Below are positions 79-49,133 of a DNA stretch of 49,140 nt, piece by piece. Made by a program: the position numbers and the translations under genes. The stretch is from assembly GCF_014202945.1 (NCBI RefSeq), contig NZ_JACHHW010000015.1, positions 1 through 49,140 of the forward strand. Reading direction: 5' to 3'. The notes beneath the pieces are model-generated. The model did not search any database and was not told the DNA's origin. It saw only the letters and a program-made list of their open reading frames with translations. The stretch's first letter is position 1. Each line of letters begins with the position of its first letter. The DNA comes from Zhongshania antarctica (GTDB taxonomy: Bacteria > Pseudomonadota > Gammaproteobacteria > Pseudomonadales > Spongiibacteraceae).

Positions 79-340
79 TAAAAACCTTCGCTTCGCGCTA
101 CCACAACTCCTGCAGTCACCCCACCTATACAATCAATCCACAAAATCTTTGCCGCACAATTCATTCTCGGGAGAGATTTGAAGTTTTGGCTTATGATGCC
201 CAATATTTATTTCCCAAAATGGTTTCGGCAAGTTGGCCAAGACATGAGCTACTCCCTCATCCCCCATTAGAGAATGATATTTATTAAAAAATAAAACTTG
301 TGTTGCTATGGGTCTAGAATACTTTATCAGTGATTGCGCA

Positions 341-488
341 CTAGCCAAGCCCTACATTATTCTTTTGCAGCACCTGTTCCGCGCGGTAACTAGAGCGCAC
401 CATAACGCCAGAAACCACTTCTAGGAATCCCTTTTCCAAGCCTAATTGGCGATAGTTTTCAAACTCCGCGGGCGTCACATAGCGCGCG
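341..488 (-). pseudogene. lipA: 3' remnant of lipoyl synthase (lipA)
   Basis: Read on the minus strand from about 488 to the TAG at 343-341, this stretch encodes a 48-residue C-terminus with [20 protein letters not shown] followed by a [13 protein letters not shown] motif. This is the characteristic end of lipoyl synthase: the RYVTPAEF helix and the (G/S)PxVRSSYRA segment with its C-terminal radical-SAM serine. The N-terminal three quarters, including both Fe-S cysteine motifs, are absent. It joins a glyoxalase-like remnant with no start codon or ribosome site of its own, so it is a dead fragment. The family match is seen in the translation; origin by deletion or recombination is inferred. 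Confidence 0.75.
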
Positions 489-815
489 CATAAGCGGCGT
501 AGGCGTTAGGTGCCCAATCTCGGGTTCCCGGTGCGCCTTCGTCTTTAGCCCAGGCAAGCAATGCTGCAGCATGAAATGCGTCGATAGCGGTGCGGCTAGG
601 TGCTTCAAAACTAACAGTAACGCCGTTACCAACGCTGGCTGGCCGTTAGCAGGATTTAACACGAAGAATGGCGGTGCATCTTCACCCCATATAGAACCGT
701 TTTCACCAAGGTCCGCAATACGCTTAAGGCCCAGTGCGCCAAGGACAGTGTCGTAGAAATTACGCGCCTTATTTAGATCGTTGGCACCAGCTGTAATGTG
801 AGTAAAAATGCTCAT
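475..815 (-). pseudogene. Glyoxalase/VOC family protein, frameshifted and 3'-truncated
   Basis: The minus-strand frame opens with MSIFTHITAGANDLNKARNF and continues through a typical vicinal-oxygen-chelate N-terminal half (GENGSIWGEDAPPFFVLNP, NGQPA). Near position 640 the similarity jumps to the next frame, where VGNGVTVSFEAPSR, AIDAFHAAAL and [16 protein letters not shown] continue the family. One missing base accounts for this. The usual family ending with its last metal ligand (DPDGNK-like) is missing, because the sequence switches into a lipoyl synthase tail at about 488. The uncorrected frame instead runs out to 459. It is most likely non-functional; a sequencing error could explain the frameshift but not the chimeric 3' end. 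Confidence 0.8.
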
Positions 816-1029
816 GTGGTGTTCTCCGTATATGAATAGTACTTCTATCGAGGTGCGGCAAGTTTGCCGCTTCGCCTGTCGATGGAAAGCATCATATATT
901 GCTCCACACGAATAATAATTACCGTAAATGTAAAATAACTTTTACCATGCGGTAACAGTTATCGACCGTGAATTATGGCCGCCGCGTGCTCGATATAGCA
1001 AACGCAGCAAGGAATAAATACCGCTACTA

Positions 1030-5740: not shown

Positions 5741-6337
5741 TTACTCCCGAGGGAGCAGGTATCGAGAACATATTAAAGAAATTTCTTTTGCTAGGCGCGA
5801 AGGAGGAATCTCCGCTGAGGCATTGAGAAATATGCCCTCTATGGAGTTCATGCAAATATTCAGCGAAATATCGAGGTCTTCAACGTCTACGATTTCATTT
5901 CTATCGTCGAGGAAACCACTAAAGTAACTTACTACATTACTTTTTAACTCAGAAATTTTCTCATGAAAGTGGGCACCAGGTGCCTGTCTCAGCTTCCTGA
6001 GTAGCTCTGGACCTTCAGGCCACTCACCGTATATTTTTCCCACCAGCAGCTCAATAATTGCAACAAGCGCTAAATCGTTCTTGAGTTCCATACAAAAAAT
6101 AGCGTCTACTATCTTAGATAGATAGTAATCCAACACCGCGTCGTAAATTTCGTTCTTATTATTAAAGTACTGGTAAATACTCCCAACGCTGACGCCTGCG
6201 CGTTCTGCAATGCGATTAGTGGTCGTAGAGATATAATCACGCTGCAGTAAAACCTGAGCAGCCGACTCTACAATGATGTTATGCGTTACCACCGACCTTT
6301 CTTGTTTTGGCTTTCTTTTCAATACCTTAGACGCCAT
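5741..6337 (-). CDS. TetR-family transcriptional regulator
   Basis: A 198-residue regulator with an N-terminal HTH at about residues 16-62 (IIVESAAQVLLQRDYISTTT, then RIAERAGVSVGSIYQYFNNK). The divergent C-terminal half is the ligand-binding part. A ribosome site GAAGGGAG precedes the ATG at 6337. It is divergent from the SDR/monooxygenase cluster that starts at 6499. By analogy with many TetR-controlled hydrocarbon-oxidation loci it is the likely local repressor, acting through the palindrome in the shared intergenic region. The ligand is unknown. Confidence 0.92.
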   Translation of the reverse strand: MASKVLKRKPKQERSVVTHNIIVESAAQVLLQRDYISTTTNRIAERAGVSVGSIYQYFNNKNEIYDAVLDYYLSKIVDAIFCMELKNDLALVAIIELLVGKIYGEWPEGPELLRKLRQAPGAHFHEKISELKSNVVSYFSGFLDDRNEIVDVEDLDISLNICMNSIEGIFLNASAEIPPSRLAKEISLICSRYLLPRE

Positions 6338-6498: not shown

Positions 6499-7260
6499 AT
6501 GGACCACAAAGTGGTTTTTATCACCGGTGCGGGTAGTGGCATGGGGCAACTCTACGCTCGCAAAATGCTCGCGCAAGGTTGGAAGGTAGCTGCACTAGAT
6601 GTGAACCAATCTGGCCTAAATGAACTGCCCGACAGCCCGAATTTACTACGTATAAATGTAGATGTTAGCGACTCCCAGGCTGTTTTAGCTGCCGTGCAGC
6701 AAACCGAATCTGAATTGGGACATATTTATCGGGTAGTAAATGCCGCTGGCATTATGCCCTTATCCAGAATACTTGATCAGGATATAAGCTTGATTAAGAA
6801 AATAATGGATATAAATTACGGCGGCCTAGTGAACGTAGCACATGCAACACTGCCCGGCTTGCTAGAACGAAAAAGTGGCGAGTTCGTAAGTTTTGCCTCG
6901 CTGGCGGGGCATCTTCCGGTGTTCTATGTCGGCGCATACAATGCATCGAAGTTCGCCGTCATCGCCTACACCGAGGTCTTGTACCAAGAAAATAGAGGCA
7001 GAGGCGTTAATTTCACTTGCGTATGCCCCCCGCCAGTTCAAACACCGCTACTGAATCAGGCGCGCGAAACCGTATGGCCGAAGATTTTCGGCATACTGCC
7101 TGCGATATCGCCTGAAACCGTCATAACGAAGATTGATCGCGCATTAAGTAAAAATAAATTTTGGGTATTTCCTGGTCCTGTTACTAAATTGAGCTGGGTA
7201 TTTCGCAGATATTTCCCGGCACTTACGTGGCGATTCGTTCGTGCATATGAAGGGCTATAA
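6499..7260 (+). CDS. Short-chain dehydrogenase/reductase (SDR)
   Basis: A 253-residue classical SDR. The cofactor loop is TGAGSGMG (residues 9-16), the structural NAAG is at 81-84, and the catalytic serine S134, tyrosine Y147 and lysine K151 (YNASK) are all present. A strong ribosome site (AGGAAGGG) precedes the start. It is the first gene of the cluster that continues with ferredoxin/reductase and a XylM/AlkB-like hydroxylase. A plausible role is oxidation of the alcohol that the monooxygenase would make, which is an inference from position. Residues around the active site do not identify a substrate. Confidence 0.92.
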   Translation: MDHKVVFITGAGSGMGQLYARKMLAQGWKVAALDVNQSGLNELPDSPNLLRINVDVSDSQAVLAAVQQTESELGHIYRVVNAAGIMPLSRILDQDISLIKKIMDINYGGLVNVAHATLPGLLERKSGEFVSFASLAGHLPVFYVGAYNASKFAVIAYTEVLYQENRGRGVNFTCVCPPPVQTPLLNQARETVWPKIFGILPAISPETVITKIDRALSKNKFWVFPGPVTKLSWVFRRYFPALTWRFVRAYEGL

Positions 7261-7272
7261 GGAGACATACCC

Positions 7273-7566
7273 ATGCTCAATTTTTTCTCAAAAAAAGACC
7301 ATAAACTTGTCATCAATGGGAATCAGGAACTGATTTTAGAGAATAAGGAAACCGTCTTAAACGGCGCATTGCGCCACGACATTAAGTTTCCACATAGCTG
7401 TAAGGTCGGTGGGTGTGGCACCTGTAAATGCCGTTTAATTTCGGGAAAAGTCAAAGAATTTACTGATAAATCATATCTGCTTAGCAAGCAAGAAATAGCA
7501 GAGAATTATATATTGGCTTGTCAGAGTATGCCTAAAAGTGACGTTGTTATTGAAATCCCCAATTAG
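7273..7566 (+). CDS. [2Fe-2S] ferredoxin domain of a split XylA-like electron-transfer reductase
   Basis: A 97-residue plant-type ferredoxin with ligands C43, C48, C51 and C83 in the C-x4-C-x2-C...C spacing. GGAG lies 9 nt before the ATG and the SDR stop is 12 nt upstream. The frame ends at TAG 7564-7566, but the very same frame continues without interruption into a complete ferredoxin-reductase domain ending at 8310. The whole 7273-8310 frame (345 sense positions plus final stop, one internal amber) has the length and domain order of xylene monooxygenase reductase XylA. The gene is therefore probably one reductase broken by a nonsense codon; alternatively the ferredoxin may still act alone. 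Confidence 0.88.
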   Translation: MLNFFSKKDHKLVINGNQELILENKETVLNGALRHDIKFPHSCKVGGCGTCKCRLISGKVKEFTDKSYLLSKQEIAENYILACQSMPKSDVVIEIPN

Positions 7567-7614
7567 GATGAAAACAGCCACGAAATTGCTGGGTATATTT
7601 CAAAAATTGAAGCG

Positions 7615-8310
7615 TTGACCCACGATATATCCAAAGTCAGTGTCTCGCTGGAATCACACATACACTATAGGGCCGGACAATACGTATCTATCCAATCTTC
7701 AGATACTGATATTCCCGCGCGGTGCTACTCCTTTGCACAGAGCAATACACCAGGCGGCAATCAACTAGTGTCGTTTTTTGTCCGTGGCGTGACTGGTGGC
7801 CGCATGTCAAATTGGTTAATTGACCCGCTGAATGTTAATTCCAAGGTGACCTTGTCGGCAGCCAATGGCGATTTTTACCTTCGCGACCAATCTGCCCCAG
7901 TGTTATGTGTCGCTGGTGGAAGTGGCCTAGCCCCTATCATCGCACTGATCGAGGAAGCAATCCAAAACAACAGCGCCATTGTTGATCAACCGTTAACGCT
8001 GTTAATGGGCGTCAGGTCACAGCGCGACATCTACTATCAAGACCAGATCAATAGCCTTGGCACGCAGTGGAGAAATGAATTTCGATTTACTCCAGTCCTT
8101 TCAGATGAACCGGTAGCCAGTAATTGGCTGGGGCATCGCGGCTTCGTTACTAATTATATTGACCAGAAAACCAGCCTAGGCGCCACCGGATATTTATGTG
8201 GACCGCCGCCGATGATTGATGCCGCAATGATAAAGATGCAAGAAAATGGCATGGATTTAAATAGGATATTTTTTGACAAATTTCTGGATCAGTCCGGGAT
8301 AAAACCCTGA
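7615..8310 (+). CDS. FAD/NAD(P)H reductase domain of the split XylA-like protein
   Basis: The domain shows the FAD-binding motif RCYSFAQ (RxYS-type), the NAD(P)-binding core VAGGSGLAPIIALIEE and the C-terminal GYLCGPPPMIDAA motif, so it is a complete ferredoxin-NADP-reductase-type module supplying electrons to a diiron hydroxylase. Homology already begins at 7567, straight after the amber codon, with DENSHEIAGYISKIEAL. The first formal start is the TTG at 7615, which has no ribosome site and would cut the first beta strand. The nearby ATG at 7568 is in another frame and ends after 16 codons. Independent translation is thus doubtful. Confidence 0.75.
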   Translation: MTHDISKVSVSLESHIHYRAGQYVSIQSSDTDIPARCYSFAQSNTPGGNQLVSFFVRGVTGGRMSNWLIDPLNVNSKVTLSAANGDFYLRDQSAPVLCVAGGSGLAPIIALIEEAIQNNSAIVDQPLTLLMGVRSQRDIYYQDQINSLGTQWRNEFRFTPVLSDEPVASNWLGHRGFVTNYIDQKTSLGATGYLCGPPPMIDAAMIKMQENGMDLNRIFFDKFLDQSGIKP

Positions 8311-8362: not shown

Positions 8363-9533
8363 ATGTTTCGTTATCTTAAATTTTATATTTTTCCGGCAGC
8401 GATAATGCTTGTTGCGTTTTCCATGCTGTTCGGCGGGGTATGGTTGTGGCTTCCAGGCGTTTCACTTGTTTTTATTAGTTTCTGCTTTGGATAACTTAGT
8501 TCCAAAAGATCTCGATGAGAAAAAGTATAAATATCCCTTTTTCTTAGATCTAGCCCTGTATATGTCTACACCAGCAAGTTTAGCAATATTTTTCGCTCTT
8601 TTTTGGGTCGCAGGCAGCGGCAGCCAGGATGTATTTGGTGTTGGCGGCCTTATTCAAAGCATGACAAATGTCGATGTTGTTGATTTGCGAAATAACACTC
8701 CATGGTACCACTATGTATTAATGGTTTTTGCCTTAGCGATGCCTGTTACCGGCGCTGGTGGCCTTGCCGGTCACGAGCTTACCCACAGAACATGGCGCCC
8801 ATTCGATCTCTGGCTGGGCCGCTTCACAATGGCACTGAACTGGGGAATTGCCTTTCCGATAGAGCACGTTTACGGTCATCATTCCTATGTTGGTACAGCC
8901 AAAGATCCAGCCACCGCAGCCCGCGGTGACAGCGTCTACCAACATTTACCGAAGGCAATGTACCTAACGGTACTTAATGCATGGGAAATAGAGAGTTCAA
9001 GACTGGATAAGATCGGGGCGTCCGTTTTATCACCAAAAAATGTTTTGCTGCAGCTCGCATCTATAGCAATGGCAACCACCGTGGTAGCGTACTTATGCGC
9101 TGGCTGGGTGGGTGTTATGTTTCATTTAACCATATGTTTGATGACTAAAATCGCATTAGAAATTCTTAATTATGTAGAGCACTACGGCATCGTGAGAGTA
9201 CCCACGGAGCCGGTAAAGCCGCATCACTCTTGGAATTGCAACCATTTAGTTAGCGGTGTGTTTACCTACAATCTGACTCGACATAGTCATCACCACGCAG
9301 ATGCTCAGGTCCCGTTTCAAGACTTGCAGTCCTATCACGGTCAGCCGGAAATGCCAGGTGGTTTTATGACCGCATACTTAACCACACTGATTCCAACACT
9401 ATGGCAAAAGCGTATCACGCCAAAATTGAATGAGTGGGACGAGAAGTTTGCTTCAGCAGCAGAGCGTGACTTAGCAAGAAAGGCAAATAAAGTGAGTCAT
9501 TGGTCTGGGCTAAACCGGCGAACGTTGGCCTAG
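8363..9533 (+). CDS. XylM/AlkB-like membrane diiron hydroxylase, frameshifted near its 5' end
   Basis: The catalytic part reads in one frame to 9533 and has all the histidine boxes of alkane/xylene/p-cymene monooxygenases: GHELTHR, EHVYGHHSYVGTAKDPATA, NYVEHYG and TRHSHHH, between several membrane helices. The natural start is ATG 8363 with MFRYLKFYIFPAAIMLVAF, but that frame stops at about 8490. Similarity resumes in the other frame at VSALDNLVPKDLDEKKY. One surplus base in the T5 run at 8469-8473 would restore a protein of about 390 residues, the normal size. The longest uninterrupted frame starts at 8409 but its first 25 residues are nonsense. It is the electron acceptor expected for the preceding reductase. 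Confidence 0.85.
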
Positions 9534-9671: not shown

Positions 9672-10850
9672 ATGCATACAAAATTAAGCCACCAGGAATT
9701 GGCGTTCCAAGAAGATGTCCGCGTCTTCATGCGTGAGAATTTCACGCCAGAACTTGCGGAAAAAATTGCGCACCCCGCTACGTTTAAGTCAGCGACTATT
9801 GAATGGCAAAAGCGTCTGGATTCTCGTGGCTGGGCCGCAAATGGCTGGCCAGAAGAACACGGCGGCGGCGCATGGAGTGCTACACAGAAATACATCTATT
9901 GTAATGAATTAGCTGCAGTGGGTGCACCTGACGTGATTCCAATGGGTATCAAGATGCTTGGTCCTGTTCTGTATAGCTATGGTAGCGAAGAACAAAAGCA
10001 AAAATTTCTTCCTGCGACAAAATCCTCTGATATGTGGTGGTGCCAGGGTTATTCAGAAGTCGGTGCGGGCTCAGACCTGGCAGCGCTTAAAACTCGCGCG
10101 GTGCGCGACGGCGATGACTATATCGTCAATGGCGCCAAGATATGGACCACCTATGCACAATACGCCGACTGGATATTCTGCTTAGTAAAAACAAGTGATG
10201 AGGGGCGTCCACAAGGGTGTATTAGCTTCCTGCTCATCGACATGAAAACGCCAGGCATAAGCGTCTCGCCGATTATCTCTATTGACGAAGAACACCACCT
10301 GAATGAGGTTCACTTTGAGAATGTTCGAATACCCGTCGGAAATAGAATTGGCGAAGAAAACCAGGGTTGGACTTACGCAAAAGCCCTGCTGACTTATGAG
10401 CGTACAGCAATAGCCGGTGTCGCCTACTGTAAGCATACCTTGGAAAAGGTGCGAAAACTGGCATCGCAAGGTGGTGAAGAATCTCTTAGCCTCTTAGACG
10501 ACGTCGATTTTCAGGCACGCTTAGCTGATGTCGAAATTGAGTTTATGGCCCTGGAGTTTTTAGAACTAAGGGTACTTAGCAGCATCGACAACGGCGAAGC
10601 GCCCGGCATGGAATCCTCTCTGTTAAAACTAAAAGGCAGTGAAGTGCAACAACTTGTACAGACCCTCCTTTGGGATATCGCCGGCAGCAGTGGTGGCATG
10701 GTGCCCGACATGCACGATGCGAAGGCGCTTTGGGAATGCCAGGGTAATGTCGCCCGTCGCGAATACATGTTCGGACGCGCGGCTACTATTTACGGTGGTA
10801 GCAATGAAGTACAGCGCAATATCATCGCAAAATATGCGCTGGGTTTGTAA
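9672..10850 (+). CDS. Acyl-CoA dehydrogenase (FadE-like, subunit 1 of an adjacent pair)
   Basis: A 392-residue FAD-dependent acyl-CoA dehydrogenase with the helical N-terminal domain, the FAD motif WCQGYSEVGAGSDLAAL-KTRA (about 120-140) and the C-terminal IYGGSNEVQRNIIAKYALG. In this subfamily the glutamate of the usual YEGT motif is replaced by glycine (YGGS), so the catalytic base must lie elsewhere. It is 138 nt after the hydroxylase and 20 nt before a second acyl-CoA dehydrogenase; such tandem pairs often form heteromeric enzymes acting on bulky or branched acyl-CoAs. Whether it works on the product of the hydroxylase is an inference. Confidence 0.93.
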   Translation: MHTKLSHQELAFQEDVRVFMRENFTPELAEKIAHPATFKSATIEWQKRLDSRGWAANGWPEEHGGGAWSATQKYIYCNELAAVGAPDVIPMGIKMLGPVLYSYGSEEQKQKFLPATKSSDMWWCQGYSEVGAGSDLAALKTRAVRDGDDYIVNGAKIWTTYAQYADWIFCLVKTSDEGRPQGCISFLLIDMKTPGISVSPIISIDEEHHLNEVHFENVRIPVGNRIGEENQGWTYAKALLTYERTAIAGVAYCKHTLEKVRKLASQGGEESLSLLDDVDFQARLADVEIEFMALEFLELRVLSSIDNGEAPGMESSLLKLKGSEVQQLVQTLLWDIAGSSGGMVPDMHDAKALWECQGNVARREYMFGRAATIYGGSNEVQRNIIAKYALGL

Positions 10851-10870: not shown

Positions 10871-12007
10871 ATGAATTTTTCAATGACAGAAGAACAACTG
10901 ATGCTGAAAGACAGCGTCGCGAAATATCTCCAAGATACTTACAGCGCCGAGCATCGTGTAAATATATTGAAACAAACGCGTGGGTATAGCGCAGAGAACT
11001 GGCAGACCTTTGCCGATCTAGGTTGGCTGACAGTACCTTTCGCTGAAGAGGATGGCGGCTTTGGCGGCAATATTAGTGATGTGTCCATAATTATGGAAGA
11101 GTTTGGCAGCGCTCTAGTCATTGAACCGTTCTGGTCTGGCGTCGTATTAGCGGGCCAACTAATAGCGCGATCTAACAACGACTCGCTTAAAAAACATCTC
11201 ATGCCAACGTTAATGTCCGGCGAACAGCTAGTAAGTTTTGCATTCTTAGAACCGCAGTCAGTGTTTATGCTCAACCACCTCACTACCACGGCGACAAAGG
11301 TAGGTGACAACTACTTGTTAAGCGGCGAGAAAAGGGTAGTTCTCAATGCAACAGCAGATTCAATCTTAATTCCCGCTCGGACTGCCGGTGACGGTAGTAG
11401 TGAACAAGGCATTAGCCTTTTTTTAGTCGACGCAAATGGTCCTGGGCTGCAGCGAGACGTCTATCGTCTTATGGATGGCCAGCTGGCGATGGATATCCGT
11501 TTTGATGGTATTCAAGTTAGTAGCGCCAGAATGTTAACCGCAGAAGGGGAGGCATTTCCGCTGATCTCCGAGGTCGTCTCTGAGGCGCTTGTTGCGCTCT
11601 GCGCCGAAGCTGTTGGCGCCATGAATCACTTGTACAAGGCAACAGCAGACTACTGCAGGACACGTGAACAGTTTGGCGTGGCGATAGGCACGTTTCAGGC
11701 ATTGCAACACCGCATTGTCGATATGTTTATGGCAACCGAGCAGTGTCGATCGTTATTAATGCGCGCGCAGTGTTCAATTCTCGACGGCAGTAGTGACATT
11801 CAACGTGACGTAGCGGCGCTGAAAGTAATGATTGGAAAACACGGTCGGCACGTCGCAGAGGAGGCAGTACAGTTACACGGCGGCATGGGAATGAGTAATG
11901 AAATGCCTATAGGCATTTATTTGAAACGCCTCATGATGATTGACAGCTACCTTGGCAATAAGGACCACCATCGTCGACAGTTTTGTAAGTTACGCTATTG
12001 CGCATAG
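10871..12007 (+). CDS. Acyl-CoA dehydrogenase (subunit 2 of an adjacent pair)
   Basis: A 378-residue acyl-CoA dehydrogenase-fold protein starting at MNFSMTEEQLMLKDSVAKYL, with a conserved C-terminal LHGGMGMSNEMPIGIYLKRL. It lacks the canonical GGS/YEGT end segment and finishes with SYLGNKDHHRRQFCKL, as seen in the partner subunits of alpha2beta2 acyl-CoA dehydrogenases. A ribosome site GAGAG lies upstream, 20 nt after the previous gene. Likely partner of the 9672-10850 product; neither is certain to be active alone. Confidence 0.91.
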   Translation: MNFSMTEEQLMLKDSVAKYLQDTYSAEHRVNILKQTRGYSAENWQTFADLGWLTVPFAEEDGGFGGNISDVSIIMEEFGSALVIEPFWSGVVLAGQLIARSNNDSLKKHLMPTLMSGEQLVSFAFLEPQSVFMLNHLTTTATKVGDNYLLSGEKRVVLNATADSILIPARTAGDGSSEQGISLFLVDANGPGLQRDVYRLMDGQLAMDIRFDGIQVSSARMLTAEGEAFPLISEVVSEALVALCAEAVGAMNHLYKATADYCRTREQFGVAIGTFQALQHRIVDMFMATEQCRSLLMRAQCSILDGSSDIQRDVAALKVMIGKHGRHVAEEAVQLHGGMGMSNEMPIGIYLKRLMMIDSYLGNKDHHRRQFCKLRYCA

Positions 12008-12052: not shown

Positions 12053-13603
12053 ATGAAGTTATTGAATAATCTAATTGATCACATTCAGTTTCACGCCCAG
12101 CACCGTCAAGAAACGATGATGGCGAGCGATTGCAGTAAATCTTTAAATTACGGACAGGCCTGGCAGCACATTAATAGGATTGCCGCGCGCCTGCAAAACG
12201 TCGGTATTGGCAAAGGCGACCGAGTCGGCATTTTGGCGAAGAATTCGGTAGATAATCTTTGTGTTTTACTTGCTTGTGCCAGAGTAGGCGCAGTCGCCGT
12301 TGGCATTAACTATCGACTGACACAAGATGAAATTAACTATATCGCTACCGATGCAGGAATCCAATTTCTCTTTTTCTCTAATGAATTTAACAGCCTCCGG
12401 GGCGACTATCTAAGCGGTAAGCCCGCAGTTTGCTTTGATGGTAATAGCTCCCCAACGCTATTTGAAAACTGGCTCAGCGACAACGAAAATGTCATCGACG
12501 CGAATGTAAATGGTGACGATATTCTCTTCCAAATGTACACCAGTGGCACGACGGGGCGACCTAAAGGGGTTCTTATCAGCCACAGCAATGTTTTGTCTAA
12601 TTGCTTTCAAGCGCCGATGAGTACCGGACTGGGTATGCGTACCGGTGAACGTGCACTTATTATCGCGCCGTTTTTTCACGCAGTAGGATTGGTCGGCTCT
12701 TTATTAGGGTTAATCTATGGCGTTTCACTGGTTATTCATAGTGACTATGATCCGATCGGCATGATTGAAACCCTAGCAAACGATGACATCCACACAGTCG
12801 CGCTTATCCCGGTCATGCTGCAGTTTTCCTTGGCCATGGTGCCTAATATTAAAGATTACGATTTTTCTAGCCTTCATACTATTAGCTATGGTGCCTCCCC
12901 TATTTCAGAAACCCTGCTGCGTGAATGTATCGATGTTTTTGGCTGCGATTTCACGCAGGGCTATGGTCAGACAGAGGCGACAATGGCGTTAACCTTTTTA
13001 ACGGCGGATGATCACCGGCGCGCATTAGCGGGAAAACCAGACCTCTTACGTTCCTGCGGACGAGCTGTATTTGCTAGCGAGGTAAAGATTGTCGACGCCG
13101 AAGGAAACGAATTGCCGCACGGCGAGATCGGCGAAATTATCGCCAATGGTCCGCAGATAATGCAGGGATATTGGAATCAAGCGGATGCCACGAAACACAC
13201 CATTATAGACGGCTGGTTACACACTGGTGATGCTGGGAGAATGGACGAAGAAGGCTATATTTACATCCACGATCGCCTTAAAGATATGATTATTTCCGGT
13301 GGAGAAAATATTTATCCCGCAGAAATTGAGAATATTCTAGTGTCCCATCCGCAGATACAAGATGCCGCAGTAATAGGTGTGCCCGATGTAAAATGGGGGG
13401 AAGTTCCTCTCGCAGTACTTATCGCGAACGACGATCAGCGATTGACCAGTGATGAACTTGAAAATTACTGCCAAGGAAAACTGGCGCGATACAAAATACC
13501 GCGAAAGCTAGAATACCTCGACAGCTTGCCCCGCAACCCAACAGGTAAAGTGCTAAAGAAAAGCATTCGGGAATTAATGAAAGATAAATATCCGGCAAGT
13601 TAA
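12053..13603 (+). CDS. Acyl-CoA synthetase / AMP-dependent ligase
   Basis: A 516-residue ANL-superfamily ligase that activates a carboxylic acid to its CoA thioester using ATP. Motifs in order: the phosphate-binding loop MYTSGTTGRPKG, the aromatic YGQTEA, the adenine-binding GWLHTGDAG, the hinge DRLKDMIISGGENIYPAEIE and the catalytic-lysine tail PRNPTGKVLKKSIREL. All key elements are present and the length is normal. It follows two acyl-CoA dehydrogenases and would feed them. The substrate (medium-chain, aryl or isoprenoid acid) cannot be decided from sequence alone. Confidence 0.94.
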   Translation: MKLLNNLIDHIQFHAQHRQETMMASDCSKSLNYGQAWQHINRIAARLQNVGIGKGDRVGILAKNSVDNLCVLLACARVGAVAVGINYRLTQDEINYIATDAGIQFLFFSNEFNSLRGDYLSGKPAVCFDGNSSPTLFENWLSDNENVIDANVNGDDILFQMYTSGTTGRPKGVLISHSNVLSNCFQAPMSTGLGMRTGERALIIAPFFHAVGLVGSLLGLIYGVSLVIHSDYDPIGMIETLANDDIHTVALIPVMLQFSLAMVPNIKDYDFSSLHTISYGASPISETLLRECIDVFGCDFTQGYGQTEATMALTFLTADDHRRALAGKPDLLRSCGRAVFASEVKIVDAEGNELPHGEIGEIIANGPQIMQGYWNQADATKHTIIDGWLHTGDAGRMDEEGYIYIHDRLKDMIISGGENIYPAEIENILVSHPQIQDAAVIGVPDVKWGEVPLAVLIANDDQRLTSDELENYCQGKLARYKIPRKLEYLDSLPRNPTGKVLKKSIRELMKDKYPAS

Positions 13604-36034: not shown

Positions 36035-36445
36035 TTAGATTGAAAATATCTCGTCACACTTGCCTCATTCGGAAACTCATCAGATCCAAACAGTATCAAC
36101 TGACCCTCAATATTTGTTTTGCCCTTTCCCCGACGGCATGTCGTCGATTAAACAATCACCTTTATTGAGATTCTAATGTGGACTGATAATTAAGTTCTCA
36201 ACGTCAGCCATGCCTAAGTATTTTTCTACCCAAATTCGCTTTTCAGCATAGCTATGAGGATTCTTTATCGAGGGCGCTGTTAAGATGTAAAAATCCAACT
36301 TTGGGTGCTCATGCAACCACGTGTACGATTCGATTACATCGGACATAGGATCAAGGCTTTCATAAAGACCAGGTATGCTTTGTGGAAAAGCAAATTCCGG
36401 ATACTTAGCTTTATGACTCACAAAGCCGGCAGCATAATCACAGGT
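36035..36445 (-). pseudogene. Remnant of a 5'(3')-deoxyribonucleotidase (NT5C-like, HAD family)
   Basis: Minus-strand sequence reads CDYAAGFVSHKAKYPEFAFP, QSIPGLYESLDPMSDVIESY, TWLHEHPKLDFYILTAPSIK, NPHSYAEKRIWVEKYLG and NLIISPH. After a frameshift comes NLNKGDCLIDDMPSGKG, and after another EGQLILFGSDEFPNEA. These are the cap, TAPS and DD-R motifs of bacterial NT5C-type nucleotidases. The N-terminal DxDGVL nucleophile motif has been replaced by the IS21 transposase fragment that joins at about 36445. At least two frameshifts confirm inactivation. Confidence 0.8.
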
Positions 36446-37248
36446 CCACCGCTGCACAATCAGTACCGCGTTTTCTGCCTTAGCCTTGTCTTTTGGTTTA
36501 AGCGGTCGCGCAGGAATGACCGCGGTTCGATAGTGTGAGGCCATGTGTTTATAACTGGCATTGATGGCTGGTTCGTAACGGCAAGGTTTGCTCACCGCGC
36601 TACGAAGCTGATCAGGCACAATGATCTCCGGCACAACACCAAAGAACTCGAAGACCTTAACGTGGGCATCAACCCAATCCGCTCTGCGTTCCGTCCAGCA
36701 GGCGGTGGCAAAGGTGTAATTGCTGGCACCGAGCGTCGCCACAAAGATCTCAGCGCTGCAGCCCCCCGGTATCGGGCTTAACAATGGCGACCGTTGCACC
36801 GCTGTAATCCACAAACCGTTTTTCACCGGCGCGCTGTATCTGCCGCATAGAGTGTTTTGCGGGGTGCACCATTCGCGGTAATACCCACAAGACTGCGAGC
36901 ACTGATAGCCCGCGTCCCCATAGGCTTGTTTGTACTCCTCCCACAGCAGCTGTTTGGTGAGCCTTTGCGCTTTAACTCCAGATGTATGCCTGCGCAATCA
37001 GGCATAACGCGGCCATGTCGGGCGCTCAGCTGAGGTGAAGGAAACAGCAGCGGCTCAAGGTCGCTGCCTGACATCTCAGCGGGCAGTGGCCAGCAAAGGC
37101 CCAGTACAGCGGCGCGCTTGCCGTAGGTTGATACAGTGCCCACGCCGATGCCTAGGCTGCGCGCTATCTGCCTGTGACTTAGCTTTGCCTCAAGCTTAAG
37201 GCGGCGGATTTCTTTGATATGTCGCATTGCTAATCTCGTGTTTAGCAT
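36446..37248 (-). mobile_element. istA: IS21-family transposase IstA, multiply frameshifted and 3'-truncated
   Basis: From about 37248 the minus strand encodes MLNTRLAMRHIKEIRRLKLE, AKLSHRQIARSLGIGVGTVS (HTH). In a second frame follows LTKQLLWEEYKQAYGDAGYQ, in a third SMRQIQRAGEKRFVDYSGAT with the first catalytic aspartate, and back in the second GASNYTFATACWTERRADWV, FEFFGVVPEIIVPDQLRSAV and the catalytic-glutamate region KPKDKAKAENAVLIVQRW. This is IstA with at least three frameshifts. The C-terminal part and istB are missing; the frame fuses at about 36445 to a nucleotidase remnant. The element is dead. Confidence 0.88.
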
Positions 37249-37329
37249 CGTTATCCCAGCGCAAAAGCGGCAAGGATAACGTGCAGTACAGGATGAATTC
37301 AATGCATGAGGTGGTGTGGAAATTGATGA

Positions 37330-48499: not shown

Positions 48500-49048
48500 A
48501 TGCTTACCAAGCTAGAAATGGAATTCGCGCAAATAAAGTATCGCTGGCAAATGCACGATAAATTGTTTGAAGATAATGACACAGTTGATCTTCTTAATCG
48601 TTGTGGTGGCAAAGTATTCGCGTTACTTCAGTCGTTGCTGGTCTATGATACCTTAGCGGCCCTTTGTCGGCTTACTGATCCGAAAAAATCGTCGGGTCAA
48701 GAAAACAACAGTATTTATAACCAATTTGAAAAACAGAAAGTAACTCTATCAGTAAAAGAGATTCAAGAAATTGATTCTCTTTTGCTGTCACTGGAAGACA
48801 AAATTAAAAATATAAGGAATTTACGAAACAAAGCAATTTCACACAATGACTTAAAAGTAGCTAAAAATGTGGTTCAGCTTCCAGCCGTAACTTATGGTGA
48901 AATTGATGAAGTAATAAATCTCGTGTGTATGGCTTTAAACAAAGTATTTAAAACTAGTGGTGACTACGAGTCAGTTGAAGAATTTGGGCCTGGGGTAAAC
49001 AAGTTGCTTAGGCTATTAAAAGTCGCAGAGGCTAGCGAAAATGTGTAA
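48500..49048 (+). CDS. HEPN-like protein resembling AbiU2
   Basis: A 182-residue all-helical protein (ATG 48500, GGAG upstream; a GTG at 48488 is an alternative). Residues 103-115, KNIRNLRNKAISH, give an R-x5-H motif (R109, H115), the RNase signature of HEPN domains, followed by ND. Overall pattern and length resemble AbiU2-type proteins (LVYDTLAALCRLTDPKK), which belong to abortive-infection/toxin-like families. It stands alone, without an obvious antitoxin, next to a strongly structured sequence at the window edge. Family placement is moderate; an RNase role is inferred from the motif only. Confidence 0.65.
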   Translation: MLTKLEMEFAQIKYRWQMHDKLFEDNDTVDLLNRCGGKVFALLQSLLVYDTLAALCRLTDPKKSSGQENNSIYNQFEKQKVTLSVKEIQEIDSLLLSLEDKIKNIRNLRNKAISHNDLKVAKNVVQLPAVTYGEIDEVINLVCMALNKVFKTSGDYESVEEFGPGVNKLLRLLKVAEASENV

Positions 49049-49055
49049 TCGGGTA

Positions 49056-49133
49056 GCCGAGGGTCTCTAACCCTCAGCCCCCACAACACCCTGCATGCGG
49101 ATCCGCACAGGGCGTTTCACTAAGAATGGTGAA
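49056..49133. repeat. Cluster of three consecutive hairpins at the window edge
   Basis: GAGGGT-CTCTA-ACCCTC (49059-49075), CCCTG/CAGGG enclosing the palindrome TGCGGATCCGCA (49089-49112) and TTCAC/GTGAA (49116-49133) follow each other directly after the HEPN gene. Such density implies a structured RNA or a mobile-element end that continues outside the window. It is reminiscent of segments near bacterial reverse-transcriptase/group II elements, but I cannot confirm this. Confidence 0.5.

Follow-up and report, generated by a model that had tools for sequence, protein, structure and literature searches.

The XylA-XylM pair of pWW0 (NC_003350.1), a ferredoxin-FAD-NAD reductase encoded beside an AlkB-like membrane hydroxylase, is to our knowledge the nearest characterised system to the locus described here, which has the same two parts. 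In the record, the reductase beside xylM is described only as a 2Fe-2S protein; we take it to be XylA. In intact relatives, the reductase moves electrons from NADH through FAD to its [2Fe-2S] ferredoxin domain, and the AlkB/XylM-like membrane hydroxylase uses those electrons to hydroxylate a hydrocarbon. Among the relatives with solved structures, the reductase BenC has a Rieske dioxygenase as its partner, and the electron donor of the alkane monooxygenase AlkB is a rubredoxin.

The locus lies in a window of 49,140 nucleotides, the whole stretch of DNA that was analysed (contig NZ_JACHHW010000015.1 of Zhongshania antarctica, assembly GCF_014202945.1, positions 1 to 49,140). Its features are collected in Table 1, and none of the papers listed by literature searches named this locus in its title or in the opening of its abstract. 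Both genes of the pair are interrupted, and the locus very probably represents a two-component monooxygenase of the membrane di-iron type, inactivated recently by ordinary pseudogenisation.

Table 1. Features of the monooxygenase locus and of other damaged or mobile sequences in the window
Feature	Coordinates	Strand	Basis
Relic with glyoxalase-like N-terminus, seemingly continuing in another frame	330-830	-	Pfam, E 0.017 (under cut-off)
TetR-like regulator (assumed), divergent from the operon	5741..6337	-	ORF
Short-chain dehydrogenase (SDR), first gene of the presumed operon	6499..7260	+	Pfam adh_short, E 1.8e-41
Reductase N-terminal part (ferredoxin, 97 aa), cut short by the amber	7273..7566	+	Pfam Fer2, E 9.8e-17
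In-frame amber (TAG), in the ferredoxin-FAD interdomain linker	7564..7566	+	Translation; linker placed by alignment to 1krh
FAD/NAD(P)-binding half in the same frame, without a usable start of its own	7567..8310	+	Pfam FAD_binding_6, E 1.6e-9; NAD_binding_1, E 3.1e-16
Hydroxylase N-terminal 43 codons, mostly in the original frame, then stop at 8492-8494	8363..8494	+	Matches P0121 residues 1-38 at 89%
Remaining hydroxylase in the shifted frame, first residues out-of-frame nonsense	8409..9533	+	Pfam FA_desaturase, E 3.5e-29
Run of five T where the hydroxylase frame slips by one	8469..8473	+	P0121 tracks frame 8363 before and frame 8364 after
Acyl-CoA dehydrogenase, open frame	9672..10850	+	Pfam Acyl-CoA_dh N, M and C
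Acyl-CoA dehydrogenase, second gene, frame open	10871..12007	+	Pfam Acyl-CoA_dh
Probable acyl-CoA synthetase (assumed), downstream	12053..13603	+	ORF
Transposase-like gene, broken into two overlapping frames	36173-37302	-	rve integrase core, E 2e-8; helix-turn-helix-like start weak, under cut-off
Group II intron end	49048-49117	-	Rfam RF00029, 48.6 bits

When the reductase frame (7273-8310) was translated, 97 residues were followed by the TAG, at residue 98 of 345, and then by 247 residues and a TGA. A good ribosome site, AAGGAGA, precedes the start at 7273, and the SDR gene ends 12 bases upstream of this start. All four cysteine ligands of the ferredoxin (C43, C48, C51 and C83) are kept, and they were invariant across the 21 sequences of an alignment. 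The Pfam domains FAD_binding_6 and NAD_binding_1 both lie C-terminal to the amber, within 7567-8307. An earlier note on this DNA, made from the letters alone, had described a ferredoxin stop followed in frame and with no gap by an FAD/NAD reductase domain, and the domains found on both sides of the stop confirm this. Its further statement, that the whole frame has the length and domain order of a xylene-monooxygenase reductase, also agrees with our results, and XylA-like is correct as a kind.

The joined frame, with the stop entered as an unknown residue, gave 1858 protein matches in a search restricted to proteins with 0.55-1.75 times the length of the query. The best 120 of these 1858 were all one-piece proteins of 323-397 aa (median 345). 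P0001, the nearest among the matches listed, has 345 aa and is 96% identical over 100% of the query. Because the frame aligns end to end with single-chain homologues, its continuity across the amber is not a matter of chance.

At the column of the amber, the best 120 of the 1858 proteins showed 63 N, 16 D, 14 W, 11 gaps and 16 other residues. These relatives are biased evidence, as database proteins cannot contain a stop, and genomic loci represent a fairer test. Of 61 such loci, the 28 with a clean frame were aligned; the others were L097, which is frame-shifted, the partial L101, and L103-L133, where most matches cover the ferredoxin alone. The 28 loci contained 26 sense codons, two gaps and no stop at this column, and in all of them the reductase is continuous. 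Set against these loci, the window gene, with its TAG at residue 98, is not one polypeptide and is therefore a broken relative of the XylA-type reductases. The column itself is, judging from the alignments, a variable linker position. CAG, AAG and GAG had been suggested in the earlier note as examples of the ancestral codon at 7564, which is not what the relatives indicate: the four nearest proteins (P0001-P0004; 96, 86, 73 and 67% identical) all carry Trp there, and Q or E was observed only in 3 of the 120 listed proteins, which are distant relatives, and in 1 of the 28 loci.

A wider count was made in 96 genomes (own included) with stops read through and counted. Of the 47 matches other than the window reductase, 46 were without an internal stop and none had an internal TAG. 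The sole other internal stop among the 48 matches is a TGA in a 33%-identical reductase paralogue from another genome of the order (G056:C1:959300-960247). Separately, the reductase orthologue of a Nevskiales MAG (L097:10001-11022) is frame-shifted too, with two stops in the first frame, and its match resumes in another. Closer DNA loci of the reductase were not found, the scan of genomic contigs giving at most 56% identity.

The second lesion, which had not been reported in the earlier note, concerns the AlkB/XylM-like hydroxylase gene at 8363-9533, next to the reductase. When this gene was compared with P0121, an intact hydroxylase relative of 389 aa (99% identical over 95% of the query), four residues were found to differ outside the slip, two before it and two after it. 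P0121 is an entry without a source mark, like the window-encoded proteins, yet its sequence is not identical to the window's. The hydroxylase shares its locus with the reductase in 29 of the 30 loci scanned (L073-L102), and the exception, L101, stops at a contig edge. Going by these loci, the reductase and hydroxylase pair is a conserved module.

In the window, two disabling lesions stand against full-length homologues that are close at the protein level (96% for P0001, 99% for P0121), and the genome has no other close copy of either gene. We infer that the lesions are biological and that the enzyme activity has been lost. A nonsense substitution in the inter-domain linker would cut the reductase and leave a free ferredoxin domain to which its own chain could no longer deliver electrons from NADH. 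The one-base slip in the T-run would put the hydroxylase out of frame after approximately 36 residues. Lost selection after the first hit, whichever of the two it was, may then have let the second lesion arise.

Leaving the stop aside, 13 positions distinguish the reductase from P0001. Among the columns that are at least 90% uniform the reductase is off-consensus at one, where P0001 and P0002 deviate as well. There is no decay signature in the reductase beyond the lesions and no excess of protein-level change at conserved sites. Since there are few differences from P0001 and P0121 beyond the lesions, the loss, if real, is recent. This agrees with the first of two explanations offered in the earlier note, that the enzyme was recently killed: the close relatives are intact, the stop was seen at this position in no examined relative, and the partner hydroxylase is broken too.

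We also analysed whether the two halves could serve as a functional two-gene system, either through a restart at TTG 7615 or with the free ferredoxin recruited by another reductase. The ferredoxin domain is whole, all four cysteines included, and other ferredoxin-reductase-like frames (23-29% identity) are present in the genome. A restart has little to work with, as the earlier note had already recognised. TTG 7615 is the sole in-frame ATG, GTG or TTG in the 193 bases past the stop (7567-7759 scanned), and it is without a well-placed Shine-Dalgarno-like site: 6-mers with at least 5 of 6 matches to AGGAGG occur in 7530-7759 at 7565 and 7752 only. The ATG at 7568 is in another frame, which runs for 16 codons. 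A protein started at TTG 7615 would, from the 1krh alignment, also drop the beginning of the FAD domain. No split orthologue with its own starts was found among the 28 aligned loci, so the pattern of consistently separate genes that would have spoken against a broken single gene is absent there. As for recruitment, the ferredoxin would have a broken hydroxylase as its electron acceptor. A working two-gene arrangement of either type is thus highly improbable.

When the ferredoxin half was used as a query, 21 proteins were obtained. The top row is the window product itself, and the other 20 (at most 71% identical) may be ferredoxins that naturally stand alone or pieces cut off at contig ends. 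In the protein database, the 97-aa product is recorded on two contigs, the longer of which is the window's (49,140 bases), and the two could be copies of a single assembly.

The second explanation of the earlier note was read-through of the amber, programmed or leaky, yielding the free ferredoxin along with the complete reductase. The frame past the stop is clean and conserved, and any residue inserted at the variable linker column would probably be tolerated. In a survey of bacterial in-frame stops (PMC7918605), functional-looking cases are reported, and the focus there is on stops common to several species with dN/dS below 1. Such sharing between species was not observed for the amber of the window: none of the 28 aligned loci has a stop at the column, and the 47 other matches are free of internal TAGs. 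Read-through via a suppressor tRNA, loss of RF1 or an RNA structure was examined and found no support. RF1 is encoded in the genome. The search for suppressor tRNAs suggested in the earlier note gave no CUA anticodon among the 38 tRNA genes found (150 of 152 candidates scored, each typed by ARAGORN), a list that is incomplete, as no isoleucine tRNA is in it. No stimulatory RNA structure was found at the stop, where three stretches folded no better than their shuffles (z-scores of -0.07, 0.47 and 0.24). Reading through the TAG would also be of no help to the hydroxylase, because that gene is frame-shifted. We consider amber read-through very unlikely as an explanation of the locus. A combined scheme, in which the amber is a tolerated leaky stop and the hydroxylase is rescued by slippage at the T-run, would give low amounts of full reductase, excess ferredoxin and a monooxygenase throttled by decoding; its probability is likewise slight. 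The interpretation in the earlier note is supported for the recent kill but not for the read-through or for the ancestral codons it guessed. In appearance the locus is a case of ordinary, recent decay of genes, not a new mode of stop-codon reading.

The most probable of the other explanations, though still an unlikely one, is that the operon of the strain is intact and that errors of sequencing or assembly account for one lesion or for both. The slip in the hydroxylase falls in a T-run, a classic place for a sequencing artefact, and the conserved positions of the reductase are kept. The two database contigs with the 97-aa protein need not be independent, and further broken frames are found on the same contig. 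A stop made by substitution is an atypical error, however, and two partner genes of the same enzyme would be unlikely both to be hit by chance. The assembly, in 26 contigs, has a completeness rating of 100%. As same-genome controls, 40 of 40 acyl-CoA dehydrogenase matches (all frames at least 361 aa) and 58 of 58 SDR matches were without an internal stop; some genes were counted in two rows in these controls, and frame slips were probed only via frame length. A generally poor assembly is therefore unlikely, while an error in the T-run is still compatible with these controls.

With respect to the further broken frames, the relic at 330-830 appears to continue from its glyoxalase-like part in another frame, and a stretch that we take to be a lipoyl synthase C-terminus follows; Pfam gave no match for the latter two pieces of the relic. 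The broken transposase-like gene at 36173-37302 is, we assume, similar to that of IS21. Because of these two relics, damage on the contig is not confined to the monooxygenase operon. The contig breaks at 49140, by the group II intron end. Its last 100 bases or so are 91-95% identical, among the matches listed, to plasmid sequences that are mostly annotated as ltrA, several of which adjoin resistance cassettes. Positions 1-25000 had no match to plasmids, and for the other half the intron end was the sole one in the eight listed of 17 matches.

The SDR gene upstream of the pair and the two acyl-CoA dehydrogenase genes downstream were checked with Pfam and their frames are open. From their translations, we presume the product of 5741..6337 to be TetR-like and that of 12053..13603 to be a probable acyl-CoA synthetase. 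A homologue of the former (51% identical) is found beside the same reductase/hydroxylase pair in the Nevskiales MAG L097. The substrate of the monooxygenase was presumably a hydrocarbon, given its family and the adjoining acyl-CoA dehydrogenase genes.

In 17 other genomes of the genus, no close orthologue was found for the reductase (at most 44% identity among the matches listed, E up to 1e-30) or for the hydroxylase (at most 39% among the matches listed, E up to 1e-20). In the same genome, the next reductase is 29% identical and the next hydroxylases are 34-36% identical. Replacement of the lost enzyme by a second copy was considered and rejected, as no close copy was found in the genome. In the case of the acyl-CoA dehydrogenase at 9672-10850, relatives of up to 77% identity are present in the genus; these may be orthologues of the genome's own second copy, because that copy is 74% identical to the window gene. 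The second copy is the first gene of another acyl-CoA dehydrogenase pair (G000:C3:329203-331506), which suggests a paralogous operon. From this distribution the reductase/hydroxylase pair looks accessory, either gained by this lineage or lost by others.

Read as decay, the locus is a small and clear case of the loss of an accessory catabolic enzyme, in which both partners are hit and the adjoining acyl-CoA dehydrogenase genes remain open. For annotation, this monooxygenase should not be counted among the enzymes of the genome, and the 97-aa ferredoxin on the contig should be treated as a truncated product and not as a separate gene.

When the locus was compared with solved and characterised systems, the best solved relative of the joined reductase frame was BenC, the reductase of benzoate 1,2-dioxygenase (PDB 1krh; residues 22-337, E 9.8e-42). 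BenC has the same Fer2-FAD-NAD order. The cut-off for BenC is 430 bits, and the two halves of the window frame, scanned separately, reached 60 and 150. For P0121, the sole solved relatives found were structures of AlkB alkane 1-monooxygenase (PDB 8f6t and 8sbb; E 1.3e-42 and 4.1e-36). The window pair has a [2Fe-2S] reductase where AlkB has rubredoxin.

Compared with XylA-XylM, the pWW0 reductase is 38.9% identical to that of the window over residues 26-340, and XylM of pWW0 is 31.4% identical to P0121. In pWW0, xylM is directly followed by the reductase gene, whereas in the window the order is reversed and the pair is broken in both genes. The neighbours also differ, with alcohol and benzaldehyde dehydrogenases in pWW0 and the SDR and acyl-CoA dehydrogenases in the window. 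Higher similarities were observed with four uncharacterised pairs from Gammaproteobacteria, L073, L075, L079 and L082 (the last from Solimonas aquatica). Their reductases are 46-56% identical to that of the window, and their hydroxylases, each matched as one tblastn segment, are 59-68% identical to P0121. The reductase precedes the hydroxylase in L073, L075 and L082, as in the window, and the hydroxylase comes first in L079. L082 also has an SDR (59%) together with HADH and thiolase homologues. In all four pairs, unlike in the window, the reductase frame is free of stops.
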